From Lachnospiraceae bacterium M18-1 (lineage in GTDB: Bacteria; Bacillota; Clostridia; Lachnospirales; Lachnospiraceae): DNA of 64,000 nucleotides. The stretch is taken from contig KE159605.1 of the NCBI GenBank assembly GCA_000403295.2, positions 1,087,409-1,151,408 on the forward strand. Direction: 5' to 3'. Below are positions 3,632-62,149 of the stretch, one piece after another. The notes below the pieces were generated by a model, which was not told the DNA's origin, searched no databases, and saw only the letters and a program-made list of their open reading frames with translations. Numbering within the stretch: the stretch's first letter is position 1; every line of letters begins with the position of its first letter. The position numbers and the translations under genes are program-made.

Positions 3632-3668
3632 CCCTGGCAGTCTTTCTATGTATCTAAAACTGCCAGGG
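3632..3668 (-). terminator. Intrinsic terminator after the micro-peptide
   Basis: Perfect 9-bp stem, CCCTGGCAG at 3632-3640 with CTGCCAGGG at 3660-3668, followed on the minus strand by ATTTTTG. It lies just downstream of the 28-residue peptide gene. Confidence 0.65.
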
Positions 3669-3689
3669 CGCAAAACACAGCCAGTCAGA

Positions 3690-3776: not shown

Positions 3777-3866
3777 GCTCATTACCTCCTAGTTTTTTAC
3801 AGGCTTCTTATCCGCCTGCAGATATATTATAAGCGATATACGGCGTTCAAGACAGTACGCACTTTT

Positions 3867-4454: not shown

Positions 4455-4552
4455 ATTTCTATCTCCTTCTCCACATCCTGAATATGCTTCTTCTCATAAC
4501 AGAATTTCTTTAACTTACCAGATTGCAGGAGCTCCACACGAGGACATTTCAT
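4442..4552 (-). CDS. 36-residue open frame between the sortase remnant and the DUF5714 gene
   Basis: The ATG at 4552 overlaps the stop of the truncated sortase frame as ATGA, and its end overlaps the start of the DUF5714 gene. It reads MKCPRVELLQSGKLKKF, then CYEKKHIQDVEKEIEIW. The charged helical ending looks like a protein C-terminus, so it may be the tail of a lost gene joined here by deletion. No function is proposed. Confidence 0.3.
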   Translation of the reverse strand: MKCPRVELLQSGKLKKFCYEKKHIQDVEKEIEIWQE

Positions 4553-5157: not shown

Positions 5158-5260
5158 CGAAATCCCTCCATTTTTCTCACAAAAAAAGCTGCCATACCAA
5201 CGCTTTCGTCAGTACGGCAGCTTTCTATTACTTTGCTATTTTTATGAATTTACCCGGGGT

Positions 5261-10414: not shown

Positions 10415-10551
10415 AATGACGTTTTCCTTTCTTTACTTCCGCTTTTGGAAACCCGTAAAAAAACGGCTTCCAAAAGGCATTGCCTGTAACCTTGCTGCCG
10501 CAAAAGGAATGTCTGCAAACTGTTTTTTGCAGCAGCTCTTTTTCTGCCTTT

Positions 10552-36065: not shown

Positions 36066-37283
36066 ATGTTGAAAAATGATTTAGAGCCTCTATCGGAAGC
36101 CCTTTTAGATAGGATGACAGACGATGGCTATAGCCAACAGATACTTGGAAAAAGCCGGTGGGTCTTAGGACTGTTCTGCCAGTACTGCAAAAGGAAAGGA
36201 ATTGAATCCATTTCACTTTCCAACGCAGCTGATTTTGTAGGAGAGCATTTTGATTTTGACCTGTATAACCCCTCTATTCCCATACAGTACGCAATCAGGT
36301 ATCCGCTCCTGACATTATTTGAATTTGATAAAAACGGAACATATGCCAAGACTCATAATAAGCCGAACAGCGTAGAAATCCCCAGGAATTATGATGCGCT
36401 TTTCCAGGAGTATAGGATGTATATTGAGGGATTGGAACTTAAAAGAAGCTCCCGGTTTAAACGCATCCTGACATTCGCAAAGTTTATCCATTATCTTGAC
36501 GGTATTGGAATAACAGAAATTCATGGAGCCGAAAGAAAAAATGTATATGACTTTATAGAAAGCCTGGACGGGTATGCACCAAAAACTCTACAAGGGCACA
36601 AAGTCATCCTGCGCATGATCCTGGACTGGCTTCATGAAGAAGGATACATCCATTTTTCAGGCTGGGATGCACTGCCGGTGATTCATGACGAAACACGGCG
36701 CAAGCTCATGTCGTATTATTCAAAAGAAGAAATTGGTCAGATTCTTTCTTCCATTGATACGGACAGCAGGTCTGGGAAGTTTGCATACTGCGCAGTATGT
36801 TTTTTTGCTTATCTTGGTATGCGTGCCGGGGATGTCATCCGTCTCCGATTTTCAGATATAGACTGGAACAGGGGCTCGATTCGGTTTAGCCAGCATAAGA
36901 CTGGGAACCCGCAGATGCTCCCTCTTCTGGATGAAATCCGTTATCCACTTATTGACTATATTAAAAATGCACGTTATCAGAGCAGCGATACAGAACATAT
37001 CTTTATTACCCTGCGTGCGCCCCATAAGGCCTATGCAAACGGAGGAGTCCTCTACAACGTTGTAGAAGCCTGTATTGAAAAGTCAGGCATTGACTCTGGA
37101 GGAAGACACCGGGGGCCGCACGCCTTAAGGCACAGCCTAGCAACAAACCTTATGTCCGGGGATGTCCCGGTCAGCGGGATATCAGATATCCTTGGGCATA
37201 CCAGTACCCTGACTACAGAAATATATCTTACGATTGATGAGAAACATCTGAAAGAAGTCTCATTGGAGGTGCCAAATGCGTGA
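36066..37283 (+). CDS. Tyrosine recombinase, first of the RIT trio
   Basis: 405 residues. The N-terminal SAM-like DNA-binding part spans about 1-200. The catalytic domain has Arg in YLGMRAGDVIRLR, His-x-x-Arg in PHALRHSLATN, His in LGHTSTLTTE and the nucleophile Tyr in EIYLTIDE. All key residues are present. The stop overlaps the start of the second gene by 8 bp. Plus strand, against the direction of the host element. AAAGGAG precedes the ATG. Confidence 0.9.
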   Translation: MLKNDLEPLSEALLDRMTDDGYSQQILGKSRWVLGLFCQYCKRKGIESISLSNAADFVGEHFDFDLYNPSIPIQYAIRYPLLTLFEFDKNGTYAKTHNKPNSVEIPRNYDALFQEYRMYIEGLELKRSSRFKRILTFAKFIHYLDGIGITEIHGAERKNVYDFIESLDGYAPKTLQGHKVILRMILDWLHEEGYIHFSGWDALPVIHDETRRKLMSYYSKEEIGQILSSIDTDSRSGKFAYCAVCFFAYLGMRAGDVIRLRFSDIDWNRGSIRFSQHKTGNPQMLPLLDEIRYPLIDYIKNARYQSSDTEHIFITLRAPHKAYANGGVLYNVVEACIEKSGIDSGGRHRGPHALRHSLATNLMSGDVPVSGISDILGHTSTLTTEIYLTIDEKHLKEVSLEVPNA

Positions 37284-38274
37284 TATAGATGATTTCAAAT
37301 TTACTGGCCCATTTTCAAAAGAGATTCCCCTCTATGTGCAGTATAAACGTTCCTGTGGCTATAAAGTGGCAGAAACCGACCTTTATCGGTTGCGGGAGAT
37401 GGACAGGCTCTTCAAGGAGATGGGCATATCAGAGCCTGTCATTACAAGGGAAATGTACGAAGTCTGGACAGCAGTAAAACCAGGTGAAAGAAAAGTGACT
37501 TCGTCCCGCAGGAGGAGCATACTATCTTCCTTTGGGAAATATCTGATATCTAATGGATACCAGGATGTTTATGTCGGGCATGACGACAGGCGTTCCTTCA
37601 ACAGCGACTATATCCCTTATGTGTTTTCAAAGGAGGAAATCTCCCGCATGTTTGCCCTGCTGGATGAAAACTGTTCCAAAGCTCCCTGCTATGAAAACGA
37701 AGCATTCCGTGCAATGATGTCTATGTATTACTGCTGCGGTTTCAGAAAATCGGAAGTTGTTATGCTCAGGCTCTGCGATGTCGATTTCCAGACAGGGAAA
37801 GTGACCGTGCTGGATGGAAAAAACCGTGTGAGCAGGATTGTCCTTGCATCAGACACCCTTCTTTCACGAATGGGATCATTCTGTAGTAAATACCATTCAC
37901 ACTCCAGCCCTGATACATTCCTTTTCCACGGAACAAAACATAAAGATAAGCCTTTTTGCAGGGCTTCCCTTTATAAAATGTACCACAGCCTCCTGAAAAA
38001 TGCCGGTATACCTGACAGGGAGGACGGAAGAGTGCACAGGCTGCATGATGTCAGGCATACCTTCTGTGTCTATGCACTTGAGCAGATGCAGGAAAAAGGG
38101 TTTGATACTTATACCTCTCTCCCGCTGCTGTCAGCTTATCTTGGCCATAAGCATATCCGGGAAACGGAATACTATCTCCGCCTGGTTGAAGACAGGCAGG
38201 AGAATGTCCTCGAAAAAACAGGGGAATACACACCGGGGTTATTCCCGGAGATTGGAGAAAAGACCCATGGGTAA
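37276..38274 (+). CDS. Tyrosine recombinase, second of the RIT trio
   Basis: 332 residues. Catalytic residues are visible: Arg in CCGFRKSEVVMLRL, His/Arg in RLHDVRHTFCVYAL, His in YLGHKHIRETE and Tyr in EYYLRLVEDR. An N-terminal helical arm (PLYVQYKRSCGYKVAETDLY) would contact DNA. It overlaps the first gene by 8 bp and the third by 8 bp, so the three are translated together. Confidence 0.9.
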   Translation: MRDIDDFKFTGPFSKEIPLYVQYKRSCGYKVAETDLYRLREMDRLFKEMGISEPVITREMYEVWTAVKPGERKVTSSRRRSILSSFGKYLISNGYQDVYVGHDDRRSFNSDYIPYVFSKEEISRMFALLDENCSKAPCYENEAFRAMMSMYYCCGFRKSEVVMLRLCDVDFQTGKVTVLDGKNRVSRIVLASDTLLSRMGSFCSKYHSHSSPDTFLFHGTKHKDKPFCRASLYKMYHSLLKNAGIPDREDGRVHRLHDVRHTFCVYALEQMQEKGFDTYTSLPLLSAYLGHKHIRETEYYLRLVEDRQENVLEKTGEYTPGLFPEIGEKTHG

Positions 38275-39271
38275 CACGTTTACTTACCATCTGACAAAAT
38301 ATTTTTCTGATTATCTTCCAAACCAGCTTGCTGCTTCCATCCATACCATCCGCTCGTACCGTGATACGTTTGTACAGCTTATGGAATTTTACAAGAAATC
38401 TTACCGTATTCCGCCAGAAAAGCTGGAATACAGTTCTTTTTCAGCACAGCGGATTGAAGAATTCCTCAAATGGCTGGAGGACACGCGTAAAATAAGCATC
38501 CGGACAAGAAACCAGCGGCTGGCAGCAATCCATGCTTTTTTCAGGTACCTGCAATACCGTGATCCGACAGGGTTCAGCCAGTGTGCCCAGGTGCTGTCCG
38601 TACCCTTTAAAAAAGCCCCTGCTGTTCCGGTAAGCTATATGACCCTTGAGGAAACCACTTTCCTGTTTTCCCTGCCAAACCAGAAAGATGACATGCAGCT
38701 TAGGGATCTGGCCGTCCTTGTCCTGCTTTATGAGAGCGGGGCAAGGGTGCAGGAATTAACAGACTTATGTCCGTGCCATATCCGTTTTGGAGCAACGAAT
38801 ACCATTACACTACACGGAAAAGGGAATAAAACAAGGCTGGTTCCAATCTGCGATAATGTTGCAAAGATCCTTAAAGTCTATATGAAGCGTTGCGGCAGGG
38901 ATGTGCCTGACTGTCCCCTGTTTGTAAACCGTAAAGGCGAAAAGCTGACACGTGCCGGGACGCAGTATATCATTGATAAATATATAAATATGGGAAAGAA
39001 ACAGAAACCGGATTATTTTAAAAGCAGGATTACGAACCACTCCTTCCGCCACAGTAAAGCCATGCATTTGTTGGAAGCGGGGGTCAACCTTGTCTATATT
39101 AGGGATCTGCTCGGCCATACATCTATACTGACTACAGAAATTTATGCAAGGACAAACCCTAAGATAAAAGAGGAGCAGCTTAAGAAAAACAGTACATCTA
39201 TCAATGCAACAGCAAAATATGGTAAAAAAGAAAAGGAAGATTTGATTGACTGGTTGAAAAAGGCCTTATAG
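38267..39271 (+). CDS. Tyrosine recombinase, third of the RIT trio
   Basis: 334 residues from the ATG at 38267, which overlaps the second gene's stop; an in-frame opening further upstream at 38000 lies inside gene two and is not used. XerC-like: Arg in YESGARVQELTDL, Lys in HGKGNKTRLVP, HxxR in NHSFRHSKAMHLL, His in LLGHTSILTTE and Tyr in EIYARTNPK. Complete catalytic set. Confidence 0.9.
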   Translation: MGNTFTYHLTKYFSDYLPNQLAASIHTIRSYRDTFVQLMEFYKKSYRIPPEKLEYSSFSAQRIEEFLKWLEDTRKISIRTRNQRLAAIHAFFRYLQYRDPTGFSQCAQVLSVPFKKAPAVPVSYMTLEETTFLFSLPNQKDDMQLRDLAVLVLLYESGARVQELTDLCPCHIRFGATNTITLHGKGNKTRLVPICDNVAKILKVYMKRCGRDVPDCPLFVNRKGEKLTRAGTQYIIDKYINMGKKQKPDYFKSRITNHSFRHSKAMHLLEAGVNLVYIRDLLGHTSILTTEIYARTNPKIKEEQLKKNSTSINATAKYGKKEKEDLIDWLKKAL

Positions 39272-45250: not shown

Positions 45251-46195
45251 TCATTGCATGCTTTTGTCATACAGATACTTTTTCTTATATCCCAACACAT
45301 TTACTTTGGAATCATTAATCACATAATACTCTCCCCGGTATCTTTGCCACACCTTTTCAATGATTTTGGACAGCAGGATCGAGCCACCGCCGACAAAGAC
45401 CGTCACGCACATCCGCAGGTCAATCCCGCATTCCCTGAGCATCCCCAGCGCATCTGCCACGTGTTCCTTTGCAAGCTCTGTCACCCGCTCTTCAATCCCG
45501 CTGTCATACAGGGAAGTTTCCCCAAGAATGATCGCGTCCATATCATTTTCCTTTAAATCCAGGTCGTATTTCTCCCGGATCCCCTTGTTGATACGCTGGT
45601 ACATGGAAATCACCCCTCTCCCTGTTGAATCCGTGTACTCCCATGAGATCATCCCTTTTTCCAAAAGCATGTAATCCAGAGTAAATCCACCTATATCAAG
45701 CAAGAGGACTTTCTTCCTGAACAGGTTGAGTTCCTTTGCGACATACAGATATGCAGCGTATGTCTGCATATGGACGTATACTTCTGAAAAAGAAATACGG
45801 TAGGCGATTCCCATATACTCAAAATCTACCGTCTGCCCGCCGCGGAAAAAGTATTCCCGGAATTTTTTATACTGCCCCCGGTAGTATAGCGGCGGAAGCC
45901 CTACAACCAAATCGATTTCCATAGCTTCGCCCTGCAGAAATAATCTGGACGGCTTCAGTTCCCTCAGTTCCTTTGCCACGGCAAACAGCGTCAGGATATA
46001 GTAACGCTCGTCCACGGCTTTATCCGGAAGATAGACATTCCTCTCCGGGCTCAGGCGGTAATACCTGCCCTGGTACCTGATCGCCTCCTCTCCTTCCCCC
46101 GGCACGTCCTCCAAAACGGATATCCCTGAATGGAACTCAAAATGCTCCGTCTTGATCGCTTTGTTCCCTGTGTCAATCGGCATCACCAACATCAT
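45251..46195 (-). CDS. ParM/StbA-like actin-family ATPase
   Basis: 314 residues. Actin-fold motifs: MPIDTGNKAIKT (phosphate 1), LLLDIGGFTLDYMLLEKG (phosphate 2) and VTVFVGGGSILLSKII (adenosine). ParM filaments push sister plasmids apart; in conjugative elements they stabilise the excised circle. Followed by a ParR-like gene. The upstream region has 11-bp direct repeats that could be the ParR-binding site. Confidence 0.88.
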   Translation of the reverse strand: MMLVMPIDTGNKAIKTEHFEFHSGISVLEDVPGEGEEAIRYQGRYYRLSPERNVYLPDKAVDERYYILTLFAVAKELRELKPSRLFLQGEAMEIDLVVGLPPLYYRGQYKKFREYFFRGGQTVDFEYMGIAYRISFSEVYVHMQTYAAYLYVAKELNLFRKKVLLLDIGGFTLDYMLLEKGMISWEYTDSTGRGVISMYQRINKGIREKYDLDLKENDMDAIILGETSLYDSGIEERVTELAKEHVADALGMLRECGIDLRMCVTVFVGGGSILLSKIIEKVWQRYRGEYYVINDSKVNVLGYKKKYLYDKSMQ

Positions 46196-47457: not shown

Positions 47458-48711
47458 TTAAACAATTTCTCCTACTTCATTTAAAATCATGTCTTGTTGT
47501 AACTTGAATTCTATTGTCTTTGTTCGTCCTCCTGTTCTTCTAATTAATTCTTCTTCTCCAATTACTTTAACTAAATTCGCAATTTGTTGTCCCATTGTTT
47601 CTTTGTTATGATAAAAAATGGTTGTATATATATTATCATTTAATATCAAATCTCTTAAAATATCTTTATCTGTAATATCTAAAGAATGTCCAAAAATATA
47701 AAGATTATGTTGTTTACATTTTTCACGCTTTATTGTTGCCTCAGCCAATCTATTAAATTTTGATTGAACATTATCCATATTTCTATTTAATTCTCTTGTT
47801 TGCTTATGCACATATGATAAATATTCTTCCTTAATCTCATCAACCCACTCTTTGTATTTACATCCAGTTTGCTTATATATTCTTTGATAAAATTTTTTAA
47901 AGGCAATAAACTCTGTATGTATATTTTGCCTGTCCATTGGAAGAAACTCATCTATACCAAGTACCATATTATTAGGTTCATTTGTATTTTCTGTATCAGC
48001 TTTTCCATGTATGTAATCTATATCATTAGAAATCTTTTTGGTATAAACTCGTTCAAAAGTATTTGTATAATTAAAACATAATATTTTATTCAGTATAACA
48101 CCCTTTATTATTTCCTTTTCATCTTTTCTCCGTTCTATCATAGTTTCAATAATGTCTGGCGATTGACTTGTACAATCAATTACATTAACATACTCCACCA
48201 AATAAATTTCTAATGCAAGAATCAATTTATCTAAATCATTTTGCAAAACATCTTTAATTTCTTTAAAAGATTCCAACTCATTTATTCGTTCATGGCAATC
48301 CAAAAACTCATTAGATAAATTTTTCACCACTTCATCATACAATCCAAAATTGTTGTCTCCACCATGCATATCATAATCCAATGACTGAATAACATCTGAT
48401 ATCTCACTTTCAAAATCTATCCAATTTTCTTTACCATGCATATTATTTTGTAAAAAATATTCTATCCAAATGTTACCATCTATCAGATCTTTCCACTTCT
48501 GTTTTTTTGAAAACAGATTCTTTTGTACATTTCCCTTATTTGTTACAAGCAAATCTTTCACCTTTGAGCTTATATTTCCCCAATCTATTCCACTCAATTT
48601 TTCCTTATTTAATATTTGCCTAATCACTTTTATAAACTCTAAAAAATCCACATATTTCGTAGGTAGTCCATGTGCAATATCAAATCCATTCCCTATAATC
48701 AAAATATTCAT
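47458..48711 (-). CDS. abiH: AbiH-family abortive infection protein
   Basis: 417 residues. Opens with the family signature MNILIIGNGFDIAHGLPTKY (GNGFDxxHGxPT), and later has LCFNYTNTFERVY, YIHGKADTENTNEPNNMVLG and LYIFGHSLDITDKDIL, the other AbiH blocks. AbiH gives phage resistance by abortive infection in lactococci; the mechanism is not settled. AT-rich compared with the conjugative element, monocistronic, with its own terminator. A transferred defence gene. Confidence 0.9.
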   Translation of the reverse strand: MNILIIGNGFDIAHGLPTKYVDFLEFIKVIRQILNKEKLSGIDWGNISSKVKDLLVTNKGNVQKNLFSKKQKWKDLIDGNIWIEYFLQNNMHGKENWIDFESEISDVIQSLDYDMHGGDNNFGLYDEVVKNLSNEFLDCHERINELESFKEIKDVLQNDLDKLILALEIYLVEYVNVIDCTSQSPDIIETMIERRKDEKEIIKGVILNKILCFNYTNTFERVYTKKISNDIDYIHGKADTENTNEPNNMVLGIDEFLPMDRQNIHTEFIAFKKFYQRIYKQTGCKYKEWVDEIKEEYLSYVHKQTRELNRNMDNVQSKFNRLAEATIKREKCKQHNLYIFGHSLDITDKDILRDLILNDNIYTTIFYHNKETMGQQIANLVKVIGEEELIRRTGGRTKTIEFKLQQDMILNEVGEIV

Positions 48712-50052: not shown

Positions 50053-51671
50053 TTACTTTGCCTCCTTAAGAATTCTGGTAGTGTCAAGTCTACTACCTTA
50101 TTTCTTGTAACAAACCTTATTATTTCAATTTTTTCCAATTCCCTGAGCGCTGCTGGGACGGTCATATAATTCGGCCGTTTTTCAAGCTTCAGCATTTCTT
50201 CCTTCAGATCCCGATAGATCCGATTCCGGATGACCAGGACAATGAATTCTATAAATATTTTGGATCCCGCTGCTGAATCGCCATATACCCGCAGGCTTTT
50301 ATCCCCGAGATACGATTTATCCCCACGGAACAGCTTTTCCGAAATATCCCGGCTCTTATACAGGTTAAGGGCCTCTTTTGCCGTCATGTTTTCTGATGTT
50401 ATGATACAGAAATATCCGCTCAGGTCATTTTCTCTCTCAATCACATCCGTACGGTCTTCCGGAAACAGGAACTTTCCATTCGTTTCATTATAATGAAGGA
50501 TATAATACTTATGGAATCCCGGTCCAAACGTAACCGCTTCATTCTCGTGTCTGTTCAGATATTATCTCATCTGACGGAGCCTTTTTGCCAGAAGCGTCCT
50601 TTCACTCCCTTCTTTTACGATGCTGTGATAAATATGGATATACCGTTCCTTTTCGTCTGTTTCATATAGTTTCCTTTTTACGGTCATCCCATAGACATCA
50701 TACGCATCCATATGCTTTGCCCATTTATTTTCAAAGGTCCCTTTCTGCTCCAGCACAATTGAATTGACCAGGCCATACATCCCTTTTACCATGATCACAA
50801 AAGGATAACCATGGGCATCCATATATTTGATGTTTCCCTTGCTGAAATATCCCCTGTCCAGGATAAAACCTATTTTTTTATACCCATATCCTGCGGCCTT
50901 TTCCAACATGATCTGAAGTTGGGAAACATCATTGATACTTCCAGGATATGCTTCATAAAATAAAGGCTCTCTGTTATTTGTATCATAAGCTACCGCATAG
51001 TTGAATACAGGAAGGCCTGTGTCCACTTTGGGATGGCCGTACTCCACAATCTCGATCTCCCCTGCTTGGCAGTTCTTATTTGTGGAATCATAGGAAATAT
51101 ATATTTTTTCACGGTGGTTCCTGGAAGAATTCCAGTCGTTTAAAAAACCGGCGCTTTGTTCTTCCGTCATGGACTGCAGCAGATCTGACACTTTCGAATC
51201 GCTGTATATCTTCATGTTATGGGAGAACAATGGATGATTAAAAGCGTAATCCGGATAATACTGTCCCGCATTATTTTCCGTGATAATGCTGTAAGCCGCC
51301 AGGTCGAGTACAAGTCCCACGTCTTTTTTGTTGATATATTGTTCCAGGATCTCTGTCAGTTTATATTCTTCGATGATCTTTCTAATCACAATCCATGCCC
51401 CGATCTTCAGACAGCTGCTCCTATTAGACCGTGTACGAAGTTCTGGTATTTCCTCATCAGGGAAATATATCAGGTACTTTTCATTTGGGAGCATCATGGA
51501 CGGGTCTTCTTCAGCCCGTTTTCCAATCGTGACCCTTTTGGGGTTTATTTTTCGAGTCGATCTGTCATAAATGCGGTCGTATTCGTAATAAATATAGTCT
51601 GTACCAGCCTTGTTTCGATAAGTGATTTTTCCTTTTACATTCGGTATTTCCACCAAAAAATCAAGATACAT
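49986..51671 (-). pseudogene. IS1634/IS4-superfamily transposase with one in-frame stop
   Basis: A long single frame: YISYDSTNKNCQAGEIEIVE (first Asp), IGFILDRGYFSKGNIKYMD (second Asp), and after the stop YKSRDISEKLFRGDKSYLGD carrying the expected Tyr-x-x-Arg-x3-Glu. The only lesion seen is TAA at 50562-50564, after RLRQMR; the frame resumes at once and stays open. The gene is otherwise complete. IS ends were not identified. Confidence 0.8.
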
Positions 51672-51772: not shown

Positions 51773-54298
51773 TTATATTTCTTCCACCTCACAGAATATC
51801 GCTATATCATCCAAGGTTTCATTTACTTTTTCAATTACCATCTCGCGTTTTTCTGTATCCTGTATATGCCCAACAAACTCAACTGCTAAGCCTGTTAGGA
51901 ATTGAGTCCTTGTAGCCAATTCAGGATTGGTTATATACTCAGAATCCCGTTCATCTAAAGAAATTGACAGCAATAGTTGAACAAGCTCTATACCCATATA
52001 TGCTACCTGTTCCGTGTCTTCTTGATTATCTATAGAAACAGATACAGATTTTACAAAATCTCGAATTAATTTATAATTTCCAGAAATGACAGAAACATTA
52101 TCCAACAAATAAGTACTCATGGATTTTATCAGTATCTGTTCGTTCTGGAATATCTGAGTATTTGCTTCGTAAATCCTAATCTTTTCGTTAGACAAAGCAA
52201 AGAGCTTATTAATAGCTTCTATCTTTACTTTCTCATTATTCTGCGAAAAATCAACAATTCTGCGAAGAATTCGACATTTTATTGTATCTTCCAGAAATTC
52301 TGCAGATTCTATAACCGCATACAGGCCTTGATACTTCTCCTCATTCAATTGTGTTAATACTTTCAATGCATCATCCTGATACTGCTCCTTGGGTTCCTGT
52401 TTCTTTGTTGATTTATCCATATATATCATCAATGGTGAAAAATCAACAGTCCTTGTAGATTGATTGATTGATATCAACTTAAGATCAGCCAACTCCTGAA
52501 AATAGAATTCCTCGTCTTCAAGCTTGTATTCCTTTGGTTCTTTTAAGCATAAAAATACTGCTGTTTTTTTAGATATCTGTAAAACATTATTTAATTCATA
52601 ATATCTTGTAGCTACCATAAGAAAGTTCTTAGTAAATATATCTTCAAAGCATTGAACAAAATTATCATACAAATAGCCTTCTAAACCTTCAGCAGGACCA
52701 GAGAAGTTACTTTTAAGCCTCTTACTTGACAATTGCCCCATCTTAAAATATGCCTTTGCATACCAAATGAGTAACGGTAAACCGCTTGTAAGACTATGCA
52801 TTTCAGATATGGTAATATCTGTTTTCCATTTTGAGCTATCAAAAATGTGATCCGTCATCCTTGAACAATCCTTCTCATCCAAACGCTCTACAATAATATC
52901 CTTGGATTCCTTTGAAGCAAATCTTGTAGTTATAAGCATCTTTATGACATTTGGTTTCAGAAAATCTTTGAGGAACTGTATATCTTCTCTTGACTTAGCC
53001 GGAAGACTTTCATAATCATCTATAATAATTAAAATTCCATGAGCTTGATTCGAATAATCCTTAATCCATTTTACCTTATCCTCAAAGCTTGTCCTTATTT
53101 TTTCAGATGGGTGAAATATAGCATAAAGTATATCCACTACATCATGATAATTATGAACATCGCTTTCCATCTCATAAAAATTACTAAGGTTTTCTTCATT
53201 TAGATCCCTAGAATAAATTTTCGTTTTAGCTGACAAGAAGATTATTCTTCTTAAATTAAAGTGCTGACGAATAGTATCCAAAATGCCATCTTCATTATTG
53301 AGGATTCGATTCATCCACATAAATACAGCACTTGTTTTTCCAACTCCTCCTACACCTCTTACAGCACCATATGCCATATTACCAGTAATAAATTGATCGA
53401 GTTTAGTTTGGACACACTTATGTATTCCCTTATAATATTCCTGCTCAAATAATTCATACTGAGAGAATTTATTAAGGGCTATTCCATTTTTTCCTAACTT
53501 TTTAGTTTCTTCCGGAAAGAAGCCTTTCAGTTCTGCCGGAAATTCATCAAGGTATTTAACAGAATCACTTGCATATTGTGTCCTGTATACATACGCCATC
53601 TTAAATGCTAGTGGTGCAGTTTCCACATCCATCAGCATCATAAATAATTCTTCTTTATCATTAAACTGAATAAATGGCGATATTTTGATGTATTTGTCAT
53701 CTACGGCAATGAACAAATCACCTTCTTGAATATCATTATTTATGTTACTAAGCCGAGCCTTTATCGCAAGTTTTGGGAATTTTACAAATCCATTTTTATT
53801 TCCGCACTGCTTAACCAACATTTCACCATTTTGCTTCACTCTAGCCACATAATAGAAATCATTCTCCTCTTGGTAAAGTTTCCTGATAAGATCACTATCT
53901 TTGTCTGCTAATGATTCTAATTCCATCAATGCATGCCAACACTGTTCACATTCCCCATTCAGTCTCATTGCTTCAAATTCATCAAAGGTTGTATGACCAA
54001 AGAGTAAATTTCTACCTTCCTTGTATAAATCAAAAATATTCACAATAGATTTGCTAAGATTAAGCCTAGAATCAATTAGTCTGATTAGTTTTCCTGTCTG
54101 CGGTCTTTGAAGGCACTTCATAACAGCCTTAATTCCTGCCTTATCCATAGATGAATGCTTTATATCCCAAGTTGCGGCAACAGTAAGCATCAAAAAATAG
54201 TCCATTTTAATTTTATTATAGCATGCCACATCTGTCGTCTTTCCATCAAAATCATATCTCAGTATAAGATTATCCAATTCTCTTGTAATATTATCCAT
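51773..54298 (-). CDS. STAND-type P-loop NTPase of the chaperone operon
   Basis: 841 residues. An N-terminal ~280-residue helical/mixed region, then a STAND/NB-ARC-like ATPase: Walker A GVGGVGKTSAVF near residue 318, Walker B GILIIIDDYESLP near 425, and sensor KMLITTRFASKE near 453. About 350 helical residues follow and may be repeats that sense or hold a partner. STAND proteins are switch ATPases in immunity and cell death. The start overlaps the upstream stop by one base (TAATG). No effector domain was recognised, so the effector could be the N-terminal region or another gene of the operon. Confidence 0.75.
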   Translation of the reverse strand: MDNITRELDNLILRYDFDGKTTDVACYNKIKMDYFLMLTVAATWDIKHSSMDKAGIKAVMKCLQRPQTGKLIRLIDSRLNLSKSIVNIFDLYKEGRNLLFGHTTFDEFEAMRLNGECEQCWHALMELESLADKDSDLIRKLYQEENDFYYVARVKQNGEMLVKQCGNKNGFVKFPKLAIKARLSNINNDIQEGDLFIAVDDKYIKISPFIQFNDKEELFMMLMDVETAPLAFKMAYVYRTQYASDSVKYLDEFPAELKGFFPEETKKLGKNGIALNKFSQYELFEQEYYKGIHKCVQTKLDQFITGNMAYGAVRGVGGVGKTSAVFMWMNRILNNEDGILDTIRQHFNLRRIIFLSAKTKIYSRDLNEENLSNFYEMESDVHNYHDVVDILYAIFHPSEKIRTSFEDKVKWIKDYSNQAHGILIIIDDYESLPAKSREDIQFLKDFLKPNVIKMLITTRFASKESKDIIVERLDEKDCSRMTDHIFDSSKWKTDITISEMHSLTSGLPLLIWYAKAYFKMGQLSSKRLKSNFSGPAEGLEGYLYDNFVQCFEDIFTKNFLMVATRYYELNNVLQISKKTAVFLCLKEPKEYKLEDEEFYFQELADLKLISINQSTRTVDFSPLMIYMDKSTKKQEPKEQYQDDALKVLTQLNEEKYQGLYAVIESAEFLEDTIKCRILRRIVDFSQNNEKVKIEAINKLFALSNEKIRIYEANTQIFQNEQILIKSMSTYLLDNVSVISGNYKLIRDFVKSVSVSIDNQEDTEQVAYMGIELVQLLLSISLDERDSEYITNPELATRTQFLTGLAVEFVGHIQDTEKREMVIEKVNETLDDIAIFCEVEEI

Positions 54299-56019
54299 TA
54301 GATTTCTCCCTGCATTGGAATACCTTTGCCTGTAAGTGGCTTAACATTTTCATCAATTCTATTGGCTATATCCAAATTTGTATTTTTAAAGAATGCATGC
54401 ATATCCCACATAAATTTCATATAACGACCTTGATAATTATTCCTATCCATTACATTTTCAAGAATTCCTAACACAAGTCCAGCATTTCTTGCAGAACACT
54501 TCTGCTTTTCTATGTTACTATCCGCTTTATTGTATCCAAGAAATTCAAATAACAACTGGTCAAATTTTGTATCATATACGCCAGCTGCATATCCTCCTTG
54601 GAGGAACTCCCCAATATTCCTTAAAGCAGTTTTTAATTCTCTTGAATTCAAGCCATGTTTTTCCTTTATTTTCAAACAGTTTGCATACAAATACTGTCTT
54701 ACAATCGGATTTTTTCCTTGCCTGTTCAGCTTTCTAACAGAGTTCAAAAGTGAATGAACACTATTGCCGTCATACCTAAGAATAGTGTCAATAAACATAT
54801 CAATATGTGCATCTGAAAGTATTGCCAAAACATAAGCGAACATCACCTGTTTTGCATCATCATTATACATTGACATCTGCTCTTCCAGAAATGGAATTGC
54901 TCTTCCATCAATATCAAGATCACCTATGGCCAAACCATATGTTTTTATATCCTCGATACTAACGCTTGTTTTATCAATCTTTTGCATAAACATTTCTTGA
55001 ATCTCCGTTCTATAAATCTTAATACTTTTAGCTTGTGATGCAACCTCACGATAGTCTTTCTGAGAACCATATACCATACTATGTATTTCCTTAAGAATAG
55101 CATCTTTCTGATCCGGTCTTGATTCATTAATCTTTTTAGCTAGTTTGTCCTCCTCCTTTTCAAAAAGACGTTCTATTCTTTTACGCTTAGCCCCATTAAA
55201 GCCTTGCGCTCCTCTAAACGCTGCATAAAGCGCTTCCTTTTCTTTAGGAGTTGATTTTTCAATCTTTTTCTTTAGGGCATTAAAATACTTTCTATCTGTA
55301 TCAGCGCCAATAAAATCGGTCTTTTTAAGCATAATAAAAGCAGTCTGATAATTTTCTACATTTAACCCATGAAGAAGTCGCTTCATTACGGTATATCTTA
55401 CCCTGTCATCTTCATAATCAAAATATAAGTCCCTAATAACTTCATCAAGCTTCTCATTTTGCTTGATATATCCACAAGCGGTTATTAGCATGGTTATCTG
55501 ATACTTCCATATCCCCCAGTTGACCAACATATGATTGATGCTCAATGCGTAATCCGAATTAGAATTAACAAAATTCGCTATTGCTTGAGCCCAAATAGTA
55601 ACCTTCTTTTCATTATTATAAAAAATCTTCTCATTCTGTTTAGTGGCATAAACCATACACTGAAGCGGTTGCTTTCCATCCTTATTCATTGAACTCATTT
55701 TCCTTTTCAATTCTCCGTCTACAACCTCGTCCTCCATCATTGATGACATTTCTGCCAAGTCCATAAAATCCTTGACATCTTGCTCATCAAAAATTTCAGT
55801 AAATAAATTTTTAGTCTTATACTTCACGGAAGAACCTGAAACCTGTAACTTCGGCTCATAACTACCTATTACCAATCGAATGCTTTCCTTCTTGTTATTC
55901 AATTTAGCAATTGCCTCATCCGTAGTTTTACAATTTAGGACATCTGCTTGATCTGCTTTACTCAACATTCCATATTTTATCTGATTGCCAAAAGATAATT
56001 GATTTATCCTAATCGCCAT
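54298..56019 (-). CDS. Uncharacterised all-helical protein of the chaperone operon
   Basis: 573 residues from the ATG at 56019, placed after GAGGAGG; a TTG six bases earlier is possible. Mostly helical, with many short helices in the second half that look like solenoid repeats (for example FMQKIDKTSVSIEDIKTYG, VRKLNRQGKNPIVRQYLYAN) and a highly charged middle (RKRIERLFEKEEDKLAKKI). No catalytic motif or known family recognised. Located between the Hsp70-like and STAND genes, it may be the client, adaptor or scaffold. Confidence 0.65.
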   Translation of the reverse strand: MAIRINQLSFGNQIKYGMLSKADQADVLNCKTTDEAIAKLNNKKESIRLVIGSYEPKLQVSGSSVKYKTKNLFTEIFDEQDVKDFMDLAEMSSMMEDEVVDGELKRKMSSMNKDGKQPLQCMVYATKQNEKIFYNNEKKVTIWAQAIANFVNSNSDYALSINHMLVNWGIWKYQITMLITACGYIKQNEKLDEVIRDLYFDYEDDRVRYTVMKRLLHGLNVENYQTAFIMLKKTDFIGADTDRKYFNALKKKIEKSTPKEKEALYAAFRGAQGFNGAKRKRIERLFEKEEDKLAKKINESRPDQKDAILKEIHSMVYGSQKDYREVASQAKSIKIYRTEIQEMFMQKIDKTSVSIEDIKTYGLAIGDLDIDGRAIPFLEEQMSMYNDDAKQVMFAYVLAILSDAHIDMFIDTILRYDGNSVHSLLNSVRKLNRQGKNPIVRQYLYANCLKIKEKHGLNSRELKTALRNIGEFLQGGYAAGVYDTKFDQLLFEFLGYNKADSNIEKQKCSARNAGLVLGILENVMDRNNYQGRYMKFMWDMHAFFKNTNLDIANRIDENVKPLTGKGIPMQGEI

Positions 56020-56021
56020 AA

Positions 56022-57776
56022 TCAATCTTCCTCCTCAGTGTTAAATTCAAATGGTACTTCTCCATCTATTGATGCATATATCGTGATAATCTTATTAGCA
56101 TCAATTTTATATGAAATATCTATAGTTGTTCCAACATTCACCATTTCACTAAACTCTACTGTTTTCTTTCTCAGCAACCGCATGTTGCAGTCATAAATAC
56201 TATGACCCTCATAAAGAATCAGACTCATTCTACTCTGAGAGGATGTTTTTAATTGAATGTCAGACTTTTTCATAAAACACGGATAAGTCTCATCCTTTGA
56301 AATAATTTCAACTGGCATTCTATCTTCAACATCAATATAGTAAGACATGCCCATTCTCTTTGTTTCAGATATATCAATACTAAAACTTTCTACAATTTCA
56401 GCTGAATCGTTGGAAGAGGCCTCTTGGAAAGAATCCTCTTCCTTTGAAACCAATCCATTCGTAGAGTACTCTAAATCAGCAACCTTTTCCCTCTTCTTCA
56501 ATTGTTGTTTAAGTACTTTAGTTATTTCGGATGTTCCCTCCGGTGTCTGAATTACCAACGATAACGCAACCCCCGTTGCTGTACAAAACAGCGGTTCTTC
56601 TGCAACAATTACAGGTTTCTGAATGACCGCTTTAATTGTATTAGAAATCTGATTATAATTTGCCATTCCGCCAGTAAGATAAATACAATCTATATCATTC
56701 GGTGTCATATTATTATCAGCAAGAGTTTTCCTAATAATCCTCTTTATTGATTGATGTGTTCCATACTCCTCCTTACTATTGAGTAAACCATCCAAGGCAA
56801 TATCCATTTGCTTCTTTGTCAAGGAAATCTTGAACGGAACTTTTCCACTAAGATTTATACAAAGTCCTTCAAAATCACAGGTGAACTCATATACTCTAGA
56901 TGTATTTTCCTTATTGCACAAGAACTTCTTAGCATCTTCCGCAATCAGAAGCATTCTCTTTTCTAATATTATCCTGTCAAAGTCTGAAACCTCATGCTCG
57001 TACAACTCATAATGGTTAAGGAAATCCTTCATGAACTTTTTCATAAGTTCATAATCAAATTTTGCACCTGCAAATTCATCATGCTTAGCCGGCTCATAGG
57101 GAGTACTTGCTTGGAGGATATTACTTCCCTGATACGATATATCACTAATAATAATATCCATCGTACCACCGCCAATGTCTATTAGCATAATCGTATTCTT
57201 CTTGCTTTTAATCATATTGATAAACTGACTTTCGTTTACCACCAAATTAATAAGTGCAGCAAATGGTTCCTCGGTTGTTCTAACTAGCTTCAAATCTTTA
57301 TAGCCCAAATCGAATAACGCTTGTTTTGCAGCATTCTCAGTATCACTTCGTTTATCTTGGCTGAATGCTGCCGGTACAGAAATTCGTACACTTGCATTTG
57401 CCCCACCGTCTTCGACGATTCTCGCAAAACAGACTTTCAAAATTTCTGTTGAAACTTCTTGGGGTGTATGCTCATTATATTCATCTTTTCTAAGGCTTCC
57501 ACCAAGATCGATTTTTGCATTGATATATACTCTTTCAGGGTCAAAATGAATAGCTTCTTTAGCATATTCTCCCACAATGACCCTCCCATCCTTAGCAAAA
57601 TAAACTGCTGATGGAAGCAATTCAGTTTCCTTTATGTCATCCAATTCACTGATAGGCATATTAGCCAATTTAAGCTTAGTATATTTCCAAGAATTACCTT
57701 CTTTTGTAGCCTTCACAACTACAGTGTGTGTAGTTCCAAGATCTATGCCATAAAAAGCCCTCCTTGCACCTGCCAT
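56022..57776 (-). CDS. Divergent Hsp70/DnaK-like chaperone lacking the lid
   Basis: 584 residues. Actin-type ATPase with GIDLGTTHTVV (residues ~10-20), LIDIGGGTMDIIISD (~198-212) and YLTGGMANYNQI (~366-377). A substrate-binding-type beta domain follows (about 475-575: PVEIISKDETYPCFMKKSDI, MSLILYEGHSIYDC). The interdomain linker is long and acidic and the DnaK DVLLLDV linker is not recognisable. The alpha-helical lid is missing. It follows the GrpE-domain gene by 2 bp, suggesting they work as a chaperone and exchange factor pair separate from the housekeeping DnaK. Confidence 0.88.
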   Translation of the reverse strand: MAGARRAFYGIDLGTTHTVVVKATKEGNSWKYTKLKLANMPISELDDIKETELLPSAVYFAKDGRVIVGEYAKEAIHFDPERVYINAKIDLGGSLRKDEYNEHTPQEVSTEILKVCFARIVEDGGANASVRISVPAAFSQDKRSDTENAAKQALFDLGYKDLKLVRTTEEPFAALINLVVNESQFINMIKSKKNTIMLIDIGGGTMDIIISDISYQGSNILQASTPYEPAKHDEFAGAKFDYELMKKFMKDFLNHYELYEHEVSDFDRIILEKRMLLIAEDAKKFLCNKENTSRVYEFTCDFEGLCINLSGKVPFKISLTKKQMDIALDGLLNSKEEYGTHQSIKRIIRKTLADNNMTPNDIDCIYLTGGMANYNQISNTIKAVIQKPVIVAEEPLFCTATGVALSLVIQTPEGTSEITKVLKQQLKKREKVADLEYSTNGLVSKEEDSFQEASSNDSAEIVESFSIDISETKRMGMSYYIDVEDRMPVEIISKDETYPCFMKKSDIQLKTSSQSRMSLILYEGHSIYDCNMRLLRKKTVEFSEMVNVGTTIDISYKIDANKIITIYASIDGEVPFEFNTEEED

Positions 57777-57778
57777 AG

Positions 57779-59353
57779 TTACACCTCCTCTGCTACAGGA
57801 TGGAGAATCACAGAATTACCGACTCTATATCCAGGATACTTGACTTCAGCTTTCCCAGAGATTTCTCTATCTACACGATACTTTCCCCTCTTTATTTCTT
57901 CAATGTTTACCCTTGTTCCTATCTCTCCATAAACATCTATACCGCTGATATTCATAATTTCAAAAAGATTTTTCAAAATGCGCTGTATATCTTTCATTTT
58001 CATTGCATCAGCTGCATAAGCTGTCCGATACAGCTTTCCCAACACATGATCATATTTTTTGCTATCTAAAAGAGAAATGAACTGTGATAATACTTTCTTT
58101 TCCGTATTATCAACCTTTTCTTCAAGCTCAATTACTCTTTCCTGAAGTTCCTCAATTTGTCGATCTTTCTCGCTTAATGCCACATGATCCATTTCGGATG
58201 CAGTATTCCTGCGTTCTTTCGTAGCTGTATTCGTATTTGAAGTACTACGTGTTGAAAAATCAGCCGTTTTAATTTTCTCCAAAATCAAATCATGAAAATC
58301 CAAAATGTCCTGTTTATGAGCTAACAAAATCCGAGAATTAAAGCCTATCTTCATTCTCTCGAATTCATCATCGAAGAAATATCCTCTGGCAAAATGCATA
58401 CCATCATTCTTCCAGAATTCATTAACTTCTCTGAGTCCATATCGCGAATTTCCCTTCTCTACAGCTCGCAAAACCGCACATAAAATCACAGCATCCTTAT
58501 ATAACTGGCGAATCACTTTACCATCTTTGATATTTTTAATGCCAAAACACGCCGCATTCATATAAGGCTTCTCATATTTTTCGATAAATGTGTAAATCTT
58601 TTCATTATATGGTATTGCAGAAATTGTCAGCCCCCATGCATTCTCCAATACATCAGAAAACCTTTTTTCTCCATCAGCCATCGCTATCCTACAAAGCAGA
58701 ATGTTAATCATGGCTTGAAACTCTTCTTCATTTTGACCATGAGTTTTCACTGATGCAAAAAGGTTATGCCGTGCGCTTAAAGCTTGCTCCTTTTGCTCAT
58801 GAATATCTGTAAGCCTTTCAAGGATATCAATATACGGTTGCACTGTATAATCCTGAAATCGCTTCAAAAACATTGCACTATACTGTTCAACCTCTCCATT
58901 AGGAAAATAATTTTCTATAATTTGGTTGATTACGTCATACAATTTTGTACGATCAGAGACATCTTTCAGTAGATTAAAGCCCTCTTTAACCAATGTCATC
59001 CGATTGGTCTCTCCCTGCGATATGCAGCATTTTATATAGTTTTTTATCGCACACTCCTGCATAATCTTTGTCGAATTAAACTGATGCGTCTCCCCATCAT
59101 GCACGTATCTTAAGACCGGAAAATACTTCTTTGAATAATCAAGTACAATTCTATCAAATTCATACCCTGGCATATAAACATTCCAAAGATCCATAAGATT
59201 TTCGGCATAGGTAGATTCCAATGGATACACAGCATTCTCTAGAAGCCAATCCACCTGTAGAAAGAAAACTCCCCTAGTTGCATCCTCAATTTTGTAGAAT
59301 TTAACCATCTTTTCCCGAATGGAAAATCCTTCGTTTCTCGTTCTTTCACTCAT
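57779..59353 (-). CDS. Protein with C-terminal GrpE-like domain
   Basis: 524 residues. Residues 1-380 are an unrecognised mixed/helical region (VFFLQVDWLLENAVYPLEST, LLCRIAMADGEKRFSDVLEN). Residues ~395-430 form a coiled coil (EKDRQIEELQERVIELEEKV) and the last ~95 read like GrpE: a four-helix part (VLSQFISLLDSKKYDHVLGK), then beta strands ending KYPGYRVGNSVILHPVAEEV, comparable to the GrpE ending xxxGYxLxDRVIRPAxVxV. GrpE frees ADP from Hsp70. AGGAGG precedes the ATG. Directly upstream of the Hsp70-like gene. Confidence 0.7.
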   Translation of the reverse strand: MSERTRNEGFSIREKMVKFYKIEDATRGVFFLQVDWLLENAVYPLESTYAENLMDLWNVYMPGYEFDRIVLDYSKKYFPVLRYVHDGETHQFNSTKIMQECAIKNYIKCCISQGETNRMTLVKEGFNLLKDVSDRTKLYDVINQIIENYFPNGEVEQYSAMFLKRFQDYTVQPYIDILERLTDIHEQKEQALSARHNLFASVKTHGQNEEEFQAMINILLCRIAMADGEKRFSDVLENAWGLTISAIPYNEKIYTFIEKYEKPYMNAACFGIKNIKDGKVIRQLYKDAVILCAVLRAVEKGNSRYGLREVNEFWKNDGMHFARGYFFDDEFERMKIGFNSRILLAHKQDILDFHDLILEKIKTADFSTRSTSNTNTATKERRNTASEMDHVALSEKDRQIEELQERVIELEEKVDNTEKKVLSQFISLLDSKKYDHVLGKLYRTAYAADAMKMKDIQRILKNLFEIMNISGIDVYGEIGTRVNIEEIKRGKYRVDREISGKAEVKYPGYRVGNSVILHPVAEEV

Positions 59354-59367
59354 TTTAGCCTCCTAAA

Positions 59368-60597
59368 TCAAATTATATCTACTGCTTGGACTTTTTTATT
59401 TGTACTTTCACATCTAAATTGAACATATATCTTATCTTCATCGGCAATTTTCTTATCAGAATAGATATTGTCCATTATTCGTTTTTTCAAATTTTGCGTT
59501 ATAGAATCCCAATGGTAAAAATACTTTTGAAAGTCAAACCCTATAATAAAACCATAATTTCTCGACTTAACATATTCATATATATAACCTTCTTTGTCAT
59601 CGCTTAAGGAATTAACCTTTCCTACAGCATATGCTTCAAGAATCCTCTCCATACAGGCTTCAAATCGAAAATAATAACCCTCTGCTGTTGCTGGCAAGTA
59701 ATTTTTACAGAGATTCAATTCATCAACTACATTGTCAACATCTCCGAAATCCTCATTATTTCTCTGAAGGATTGTATTGTTTCCATCTGAAAATAAGTTC
59801 GTAAGCCCATCAGCAAGATGTTCTAAATTATACATGTGAAAAATATAAATAAATGAATCAATTAAAACTCTTGCATTCCTCTCAGTAATCGTAATCTCCT
59901 TCAAAAAATCAAAGTTATTGTATTTGACTGCGTAGTATAAGCACTTCCACCAGAGATTTACATAATACTTATCGTCTATATATCTACTGTTGATCCTAAA
60001 AAAATACTTTAAAAGAAAGAAGCAAAGTACATCATTATCAAATTCATCCGCCACAAGAATAAAATCGCGACATAAATCTGAATCTATTTTATTTTGTAGC
60101 CATTTACCGCTAAAAATCCTGTATGCCTCTCTATAGTCATGTTGCTTATAAGCGATAATGCCACAGATAATTTCTTTTTCATCATATGACAAATTCTGAT
60201 TGCGAACCAGCCTATAAATCTCATCACAGTTTTCTAGTCGAACACTTATATCAAAACTACAAATTATTTGATTTCTCTTACTCTCATTTTGTACTTTTTG
60301 AAGGCTATCAATTATTTCATCTTTTCTATATTCGCCCAAATCAAACTTAAAGGAATTAATATCCCGATTAACTAATTTAATAATTTGTTTAGTTAAATTT
60401 TTCTGACTGCCTTTATTGGTAATAATGGTAATCCTATTTAACTCATATTCTTCAATAAAACCATTTTCATCTATTCCAACCAACATTCGCTCACTAGGAT
60501 CTATACGTACTTGAACCAAGCGTCCTAGCCTCTCTTCTTTTCCAATTGTATAGCTAATATACTTACCAAGTAACTTAAAACAAACATCTGCCCTCAT
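59368..60597 (-). CDS. First gene of the chaperone operon, C-terminal cold-shock-like domain
   Basis: 409 residues from the ATG at 60597, which follows GAGGTGG. The N-terminus is beta-rich (KYISYTIGKEERLGRLVQVR), the middle is helical and TPR-like (IICGIIAYKQHDYREAYRIF), and the C-terminal ~70 residues resemble a cold-shock OB-fold: GYIYEYVKSRNYGFIIGFDF then YFYHWDSI, and finally VQFRCES and VQAVDII. RNYGFI corresponds to RNP1 and YFYHWDSI to RNP2 (VFVHFSAI). This suggests nucleic-acid binding or sensing. A decayed IS begins about 20 bp upstream. Confidence 0.6.
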   Translation of the reverse strand: MRADVCFKLLGKYISYTIGKEERLGRLVQVRIDPSERMLVGIDENGFIEEYELNRITIITNKGSQKNLTKQIIKLVNRDINSFKFDLGEYRKDEIIDSLQKVQNESKRNQIICSFDISVRLENCDEIYRLVRNQNLSYDEKEIICGIIAYKQHDYREAYRIFSGKWLQNKIDSDLCRDFILVADEFDNDVLCFFLLKYFFRINSRYIDDKYYVNLWWKCLYYAVKYNNFDFLKEITITERNARVLIDSFIYIFHMYNLEHLADGLTNLFSDGNNTILQRNNEDFGDVDNVVDELNLCKNYLPATAEGYYFRFEACMERILEAYAVGKVNSLSDDKEGYIYEYVKSRNYGFIIGFDFQKYFYHWDSITQNLKKRIMDNIYSDKKIADEDKIYVQFRCESTNKKVQAVDII

Positions 60598-60618
60598 TTT
60601 TCCACCTCTCATATTTTA

Positions 60619-61903
60619 GAGTACTCTCGGAAAGTGGCAGTCCATGAAAACACAGCGCTTCAAAAGCACTCCATTTTTCTTCACCTCCACTTTCCAGCGG
60701 ATTTCCATTTTTTCTTTTATTTTTTCAAAAATTTTTCAAAAAATCCCAAAAAAACTATTGACAAATCTGCCAGTTTGTGCAACCGTGTTGATTTTATTGG
60801 GGGGGGGCATATCAATCAACGCGTCCCTTTGGTTAAGGCGATATTATCGTTTTTCACACTTACCAAAGGAGGATACACATATGTTAATTCACTGGCAGTT
60901 CCATCAGGAGTATCTGCATTTCCTGCATGAGACAAAAATTCACCTTGACTCTTCCCAGCGCACGAGACTCCGTTCGGCGTCACCCTTTCCGGCGGGCGCA
61001 AAGGCTGTAAATGCAAGGAACATGGCATTCCCCACTGTTCCTGCAGGTGCCATTTCTCCGACCCGGATGCGGACTAGGGCTGGGACAGCGACCTGAATGC
61101 CTTTTATTTCGGGCATACGCTCTACATGCTCTGCTCCCATAATGCACAGACCGGCGTGAACCTTCCACTGTATATCCGCTTCCTCAATACCAGAAGGAAT
61201 GACAGCGTTGCCCTGCGCGAATTTAAGACCCTTAACCCAGACATCTCCATCCGGGACATCTGCCTAGACTCCGCCCATGACAACTATGCCACCTATGGGC
61301 TCTGCCAAAAGTGGGAAATCCGCCCTTTCATTGACCTCAATGAAAACCGCGACAAGCCTGCGTCCATCCCGGATTCTATTACCATTGACAGTGACGGCCC
61401 CCCTGTGCATGGCTGGTCTGCGTATGGTCAACCTGCCCCCTTGCCTGCTGCAAAACCGACTCCTGCCACTGCAAGGAGAAATGTTCCCTTTCTGCCTATG
61501 ACCGCTAGCCGGACTGGGACATCCAGCTCTATCCCCCGTGCCTAGAGGCACCCGGGAATATCAGGAGATTTGCAACAACCGGGTTCTTAACGACTACCAT
61601 CTGCACGACATGGACATCCATACCAAAAAGTGGTATTCGTTCTTTACTATAATCATCGGCATCAATATCCATTTGGATGTACAGATGAAAAAACGCACAG
61701 CATCGGCATCCTAAATCTGGTGTCCCGACCTAATTAAAGCCTTTTTCAAAACCTGCCATACGGGAGATTTTAGAGTCATGTCTTCCACTCATCATTTCCG
61801 CCTCAATATCAGGCATGCCATCTCCACATTCACTTTTTCTTCAGATTGGGTCTGCCATAGCCTACCTATTTCCTGCTTACCTGTCTACTTTCCGAGAGTG
61901 CTC
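60619..61903. mobile_element. Decayed insertion sequence with matching inverted repeats
   Basis: Ends 60619-60640 and 61881-61903 are inverted copies sharing ACTCTCGGAAAGT with few mismatches. They enclose a broken transposase. The left end lies directly before the first gene of the chaperone operon. Confidence 0.75.
60881..61714 (+). pseudogene. IS1182/IS5-like transposase, broken
   Basis: AAAGGAGG precedes the ATG. After several frameshifts the readable blocks are SDPDAD, GWDSDLNAFYFGHTLYMLCS (catalytic Asp region), FLNTRRNDSVALREFKTLNP, CLDSAHDNYATYGLCQKWEI and near the end KKWYSFFTIIIGINIHLDVQ. Stops and shifts make it non-functional. Confidence 0.7.
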
Positions 61904-62149
61904 AACATTTTGTCTTTTTTCTTCTAATAAAATATTTTTTCCTTTTCCTCTTGGCAAACTGGCTGAAATGTGCGGTCGCATAAGGCATTTCAAACTTCAC
62001 TACGACAAAGGCGGCATATTTATGTTCAACCCTGATTCATGGCAGTCCCATGCAAAGTATCACAACATTTTTTAACATTTAAAAGCACGGTTCCCTTCTC
62101 AAAATGCGGATGCTTCTTTGGAGTCGCTACTCTAAAGAACGTGAAAACT

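Follow-up and report, generated by a model that had tools for sequence, protein, structure and literature searches.

A conserved five-gene operon with a lidless Hsp70, a GrpE-like protein and a predicted HEPN-STAND ribonuclease is probably an undescribed anti-phage system

STAND-type immune sensing has been linked to host chaperones, yet the route from chaperone state to effector is open. Four kinds of published systems come closest to the locus described here, and the comparisons with them refer to the sections of the cited papers that were available. CoCoNuTs (types II and III; type IV restriction; PMC11090510) combine Hsp70 nucleotide-binding and substrate-binding domains with HEAT-like repeats, cold-shock domains, coiled coils and HEPN domains, and are predicted to target RNA. 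The GAP1-N2 GTPase systems (Kaur 2020, PMC7159879) place HSP70 and its exchange factor GrpE in a predicted conflict operon and carry the idea of a chaperone threshold. HEPN-STAND proteins carry an N-terminal HEPN domain and sometimes a cold-shock OB domain (Anantharaman 2013, PMC3710099), and the STAND-type defence protein bNACHT25 needs a DnaJ that is able to work with DnaK (PMC12169576). The present locus is a minus-strand block of five genes, A to E, at 51773-60597 of a 64,000-nucleotide stretch of contig KE159605.1 from Lachnospiraceae bacterium M18-1, referred to as the window. Its five genes are an evolutionary unit inherited together, as their sequences indicate, and the operon is probably an undescribed anti-phage system, a function that is inferred.

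Among these systems, the parts list of the CoCoNuTs is the most similar, and RNA is also the target proposed here. However, CoCoNuTs are built on an McrB-type GTPase and McrC, whereas the operon has a STAND nucleoside triphosphatase (NTPase) instead, the nucleotide motifs of its Hsp70 are intact, and a GrpE-like partner is present. CoCoNuT membership was rejected, as neither an McrB-like NxD GTPase nor McrC/DUF2357 was found in A to E with Pfam. Membership in the GAP1-N2 systems was likewise rejected since no GTPase family was found in A to E with Pfam and NCBIfam, where the presence of a GAP1-N2 model was not checked; in contrast to these systems, the operon combines its chaperone genes with a HEPN-STAND effector and a D-type protein. 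The HEPN-STAND proteins provide a precedent for E, but their OB domain is C-terminal while that of E lies between HEPN and STAND, and no chaperone partners are mentioned for them in the available sections. The response of bNACHT25 to phages likewise combines a STAND-family protein with dependence on the DnaJ/DnaK cycle, but the chaperone is that of the host, whereas the operon encodes its own Hsp70 and GrpE-like factor and no J-protein. The only HPD signature found in the search for a J-protein was located in the Hsp70 of a related operon and was taken as chance. The initial annotation could not match the gene set to a named defence system, and this holds for PADLOC and the literature alike. 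With PADLOC-DB 2.0.0 at E-values up to 1, B, D and E had no match, C matched PDC-M61B over 60 residues only (E 0.0024) and the end of A matched CSD_V (E 0.13). No account of this gene combination was found among the papers listed by searches of mostly open-access literature, and the combination of GrpE and HEPN returned Kaur 2020 and a genome report.

The five open reading frames (ORFs) are read in the order A-B-C-D-E with intergenic gaps of 14, 2, -4 and -1 nt for A/B, B/C, C/D and D/E, so that the five packed minus-strand genes with gaps of at most 14 nt reported in the initial annotation were confirmed by ORF calling. Gene A (59368..60597, minus strand) encodes 409 amino acids (AA), or 414 AA if an upstream ATG at 60612 is used. 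The start at 60597, the end of the block, is the better one because it is aligned with the start of the relative in the related operon and AGGTGG ends 4 bases upstream of it. Gene B (57779..59353, minus strand, 524 AA) has a helical N-terminal region, a coiled coil and a GrpE-like C-terminus. Gene C (56022..57776, minus strand, 584 AA) is an Hsp70 (PF00012, E 2.4e-22), and gene D (54298..56025, minus strand, 575 AA) is uncharacterised and had no Pfam match over the cut-off. Gene E (51773..54298, minus strand, 841 AA) is composed of a predicted HEPN domain, an OB-fold/cold-shock-like domain, a STAND NTPase and a C-terminal region.

A scan of GTDB genome contigs with a profile of B returned a single locus, L001, in a metagenome-assembled genome of the Oscillospiraceae. 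It holds all five genes in identical order, with flanking genes unlike those of the window, and the proteins share 29.1% (A), 32.0% (B), 42.4% (C), 31.6% (D) and 35.9% (E) identity with those of the window. The initial annotation had made its reading depend on homologues of the five genes occurring together, and it withstands this check, the order being kept in L001. Since the protein database used for a wider view is without gene context, the size of the longest source contig of each protein served as a fingerprint of linkage. It covered 46 of 47 B rows, 43 of 44 E rows and 53 of the 120 listed C rows (P0002-P0054; 169 matched), with the window's own entries and distant C rows omitted. A total of 22 contig sizes recur in two or more of the families B, C and E, five of them in all three, and 17 of 43 E homologues match a B or C homologue in contig size. 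In a control of 2000 trials with sizes jittered by 5%, the mean was 0.17 and the maximum 3. The unit is rare by the B profile, with one of 391 genomes of the class and one of 396 of the family, and the Hsp70 profile at an E-value of 1e-100 found one of 197 genomes of the order; in each case this was the L001 genome. No relatives of B and E were found in IMG/VR (pattern scans), phages or plasmids, no relatives of D in plasmids, and no near match to the operon DNA in plasmids.

The N-terminal domain of E is probably a HEPN ribonuclease and the likely effector, judging from alignments and a structural model. The predicted domain comprises residues 1-130 (53909..54298, minus strand) and contains an RN-x4-H motif, RNLLFGH from R96 to H102 (53993-54013, minus strand). 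Its R, N and H are kept in 41 of 42 aligned rows including that of the window, and the remaining row is without that region; the own entry P0168 as well as P0198, P0203 and P0206 were omitted from this alignment, and P0188 and P0210 additionally from the 40-row alignment used for the model. Residues 1-262 were modelled with a confidence score (pLDDT) of 92, giving helices at 3-17, 21-50, (53-64, 68-78), 83-101 and 107-125. In this model, R96 lies at the end of the third predicted core helix (83-101) and H102 just beyond it. HEPN domains are described as having an Rx4-6H motif at the end of helix 3, with a usually polar residue (N, D, H) after the R, and helices 2 and 3 may be separated by a helical insert (PMC3710099, available sections), and E agrees with this description in its motif as well as in motif position and helix order. 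Direct similarity searches gave no clear match to HEPN proteins. Foldseek with residues 1-262 gave no match at an E-value of 0.001 or better, the top rows being OB-fold proteins, and hhalign against 18 PF05168 rows scored 18.3 while the best of 47 decoy windows scored 22.8; the four PF05168 rows displayed are without Rx4-6H. No Pfam HEPN family was among the families listed (25 of 36) for 25 E rows, and searching PDB sequences with the profile of E returned chance matches only.

Downstream of this domain, fold comparison places an OB-fold/cold-shock-like domain at residues 139-207 (53678..53884, minus strand), followed by the STAND NTPase core at residues 300-520 (52739..53401, minus strand). 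STAND NTPases are marked by Walker A, Walker B and GxP-type motifs. All three are present in E, as GVGGVGKTS, IIIDDYES and GLPL, and G315, G318, G320, K321, T322, D427, D428, G506 and P508 are invariant in 25 E rows. Among 25 E members, Pfam matches at E-values up to 1 were found to AAA_16 (21/25), AAA_22 (19/25), NB-ARC (three, best 3.3e-11) and NACHT (two, best 1e-6). E is proposed to be a switch combined with an RNase effector. The initial annotation had linked a dedicated Hsp70/GrpE-like pair to a STAND protein, which stands, and had overlooked the HEPN RNase domain at the start of E as the probable effector.

Gene C consists of a nucleotide-binding domain and a beta substrate-binding domain joined by a long variable linker. 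Aligned to DnaK 2v7y, it has the actin-type nucleotide-binding motifs, and D12-T16, E170-P171, D200, G202-T205, D207 and G369-G370 are invariant across 19 aligned C rows. By eye in this alignment, the protein stops right after the beta subdomain and is thus without the alpha-helical lid. In a tree of 45 Hsp70s, including 19 of 20 DnaK segments (one was too short), the Hsp70s of five-gene operons are united in one clade to the exclusion of the other labelled groups (support 100/100). They are nested with Hsp70s of the beta-CASP cassettes described below and related ones (98/93), apart from the 19 DnaKs encoded beside grpE genes. Inner placements are unsure because of long branches, and the Hsp70s of the beta-CASP cassettes were not shown to be a single clade. 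One Hsp70 cluster is labelled Leptotrichia trevisanii by its source, and a plasmid search with C returned 11 records, all distant Hsp70s. Two extra DnaK/GrpE loci, L027 and L029, have Hsp70s outside the operon's clade. In the L001 genome, L027:8842-14273 encodes two Hsp70s and a coiled-coil protein of 718 AA that matches GrpE. At L029:458-8828, kinase-like, Hsp70, second GrpE and FtsK/EssC-like genes (names by eye) are grouped, possibly another chaperone-linked conflict locus.

Gene B is proposed to be the dedicated nucleotide-exchange factor for C. It has the layout of GrpE, with a long helix/coiled coil, a helical bundle and a C-terminal beta domain, the GrpE-like tail lying at about 57785-58204 after the coiled coil. 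It is termed GrpE-like rather than GrpE because PF01025 stays below its cut-off: gene B of the window had no match, and its L001 relative reached 21 bits with a cut-off of 25.8. The profile-profile comparison with GrpE is weak (E 0.031, probability 1.6), yet located at the correct end. A PDB sequence search with the B profile gave coiled-coil matches and none to GrpE. Gene A has a cold-shock-like (OB) C-terminus at about 59374-59589, where the PF00313 match is below the cut-off (E 0.014) and absent from the relative in L001; its N-terminal part and middle are uncharacterised. Gene D, for which there are only two close sequences, is called helical by eye only and carries the signature PLQCMVYATK. 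From the parts list of the initial annotation, the lidless Hsp70, the GrpE-like tail of B and the STAND protein E are thereby retained, while the cold-shock assignment of A is weak and the helical nature of D is a visual impression.

Relatives of this chaperone core were found in a second setting. A phylum search with the Hsp70 profile at an E-value of 1e-70 returned 10 of 398 genomes, namely that of L001, three with beta-CASP cassettes and six others; three candidates were scored per listed genome, so misses are possible. The cassettes (L040, L041 and L042), for which no published name was found, encode a GrpE-tailed coiled-coil protein, a lidless Hsp70, a D-type protein and a metallo-beta-lactamase protein, and the order of the first three is the same as in the window operon. 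By profile, B is related to its L042 counterpart (E 2.2e-15), and the relation to the L040 counterpart is weaker (BLAST 3.3e-7 using the B of L001; profile 0.0014), the BLAST E-values among these locus proteins referring to a set of 21 proteins. For D, the profile gives a relation to the L042 protein (E 2.2e-12, the best shuffled control reaching 0.0046) and a weak one to the L040 protein (8.3e-5). The D-type proteins share a signature centred on M[VL]YA[ST]K, which occurs in the window, L001, L040, L041 and L042. In contrast to the operon, the fourth gene encodes a protein with Lactamase_B, beta-CASP and RMMBL matches, those to beta-CASP being below the cut-off. Beta-CASP metallo-enzymes are a family known for RNases, and the HxHxDH motif of the fourth protein is intact, as in beta-CASP RNases. 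No relative of E was found among the L040 and L042 proteins tested with the E profile (best E 0.099), no evident one stands out among the listed ORFs of L040 and L041, and no relative of A was found in the three cassettes.

The cassettes also differ from the operon in their neighbours. Those of L040 (693-12300) and L041 (1700-11698) are near-identical and lie about 200 bases from repeat arrays with a 30-nt repeat and a spacing of about 66 nt (24 copies in L040, 39 in the family of L041), which are CRISPR arrays by form. L040 continues into Cas8b-type (PF09484, E 1.6e-108) and Cas7 (PF05107, E 3e-63) genes. In L042, two ATPase genes of the BrxC/BrxD type (PF10923, E 1.6e-24 and 5.1e-20; BrxD in PADLOC) lie before the cassette (1409-10509) and support a defence setting for it. 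An NTPase partner is therefore possible in L042 and also in L041, where an AAA gene lies more than 3 kb upstream of the cassette. PADLOC at an E-value of 0.01 matched only the L040 Hsp70 among eight cassette proteins of L040 and L042, as a partial PDC-M61B match (E 0.0033). The near-identical loci of genomes G1094 and G956 were counted as one case, and follow-up searches at 1e-100 returned the seeds only (two of 13 genomes in the order of G1094, one of 63 in the class of G942). The six additional genomes of the phylum have a more distant Hsp70. Neighbourhoods were read for three of them (L043, L044 and L045), in which a lidless Hsp70 lies between a metallo-beta-lactamase-type gene, assigned in L045 from HxHxDH alone, and a HEAT-repeat (HEAT_2) gene as a conserved cluster. 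Calling the window's D a HEAT protein is a guess, as its homology to these HEAT_2 proteins is unsupported: against that of L043, the profile stayed below shuffled controls and the BLAST E-value was 5.5e-4, and none of the three carries the D signature. These clusters lie near dihydroxyacetone-kinase-like genes (by eye) and genes without assignment.

As for the mechanism, the operon would be mobile and probably directed against phages, with the nucleotide cycle of its own Hsp70 as the gate of an RNase, a reading to which slightly better than even confidence is given. B would exchange nucleotide on C, which would bind a client or nucleoprotein; the part of a J-protein would fall to D and perhaps A as adaptors. 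Infection could then alter the client state by titrating the chaperone, through a misfolded or abundant phage protein, or through foreign RNA on the cold-shock-like domains. Lost or changed engagement by C would release E, which may bind ATP and oligomerise so that its HEPN domains pair, and the paired domains would cut RNA and stop the cell or the phage. The initial annotation had the chaperone hold the STAND protein inactive. This is unsupported as stated, since nothing indicates the direction of control: E may be released from inhibition, or a loaded chaperone may activate it, the latter having been proposed for DnaJ and bNACHT25. Moreover, the core is not simply the keeper of this STAND protein because the beta-CASP cassettes have the core without a relative of E. 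These cassettes also argue for the chaperone core sensing or transducing, with the RNase as the output. More tentatively, the lidless Hsp70, GrpE-like and D-type proteins could thus be a dedicated sensor-transducer engine with exchangeable RNases, its nucleotide cycle setting the infection threshold and the outputs being HEPN-OB-STAND here and a beta-CASP-type metallo-RNase near CRISPR or BrxC/D-type genes. A shared core with two RNase outputs would be a natural swap test, in which what is common would be sensing and what differs would be killing. Because a single operon in a mobile-looking setting encodes the Hsp70, the factor that likely recharges it and the effector, the question of how a chaperone acts on an effector could be addressed with one construct and point mutants.

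Other explanations of the gene set have to be weighed. That five unrelated genes are adjacent by chance is favoured only by the lack of known system models and is given practically no credence, because the same order is kept in L001, a genome whose proteins differ by 58-71% and whose flanks are different, and contig sizes coincide across the families; the synteny refutes chance adjacency. The chaperone genes may instead merely fold or assemble the E complex, the operon then being a HEPN-STAND effector with assembly factors and the C-terminal region of E the sensor. In STAND proteins, the C-terminal part is usually the sensor, the coincident contig sizes link B and C to E, and the two BrxC/D-type ATPase genes before the L042 cassette suggest that an NTPase partner may be needed there. 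However, the core in L040 and L041 is paired with an enzyme of the beta-CASP type, while a relative of E is not evident there (of these two, the E profile was run on L040 only), and a mere assembly factor should need no exchange factor of its own, as the L001 genome carries a separate grpE. This explanation is considered rather unlikely.

Another explanation dispenses with a folding cycle: as in CoCoNuTs, the Hsp70, D-type and cold-shock domains would bind ribosomes or RNA and bring the HEPN domain to translating phage RNA. The combination of such domains in CoCoNuTs (PMC11090510, available sections) and the OB/cold-shock-like domains of A and E are consistent with it. However, CoCoNuT Hsp70s have degenerate Walker A-like motifs according to the same sections, and GrpE is absent from the main text of that paper, whereas a live nucleotide cycle is indicated here because C retains its nucleotide motifs and has a GrpE-like partner; the explanation is accordingly held to be unlikely. 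Less likely again is a role as a stress or proteostasis operon, or as an addiction module of a conjugative element, rather than in phage defence. A chaperone with a toxic RNase could serve the maintenance of a plasmid or integrative conjugative element, and in the three genomes read, the Hsp70 of the wider clade has a conserved place near genes that by eye are dihydroxyacetone-kinase-like. The patchy distribution, the neighbouring AbiH gene and the position of the three beta-CASP cassettes next to CRISPR arrays or BrxC/D-type genes argue against such a role, the last two also for the gated RNase.

Several features of the surroundings noted in the initial annotation were confirmed. The operon is AT-rich, with a GC content of 0.343 compared to 0.494 for positions 1-47000 of the window and 0.271 for the AbiH gene. 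The latter is a separate neighbour at 47458..48711 on the minus strand (PF14253, E 1.5e-42), and together with conjugation and recombinase genes it bears out the mobile and defence surroundings. The claim of bracketing insertion sequence (IS) remnants holds for one side, where a DDE transposase with a Pfam match (50562-51671) flanks the operon; on the other side, the sole ORF tried (61126-61545) had no Pfam match at an E-value of 0.01. We infer that the operon is cargo of, or adjoins, an integrative conjugative element whose ends were not found. Promoter and terminator scans came out close to the shuffled expectation.

Elsewhere in the window, a large VaFE-repeat surface protein (5261-10414), a VirB4-like conjugation ATPase (25258-27870), a lytic transglycosylase-like protein (29374-31413) and an actin-like protein of the MreB/ParM type (45251-46195) are encoded. 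Three adjacent tyrosine recombinase ORFs on the plus strand (36066-39271) are possibly a mobile-element recombinase trio. Immediately before gene A, at 60610-60635, lies a palindrome of the GAGAGTACTCT type, possibly an operator or an IS trace, and similar copies are located 1.25 kb away at 61887-61912 and inside gene C at 56458-56475.

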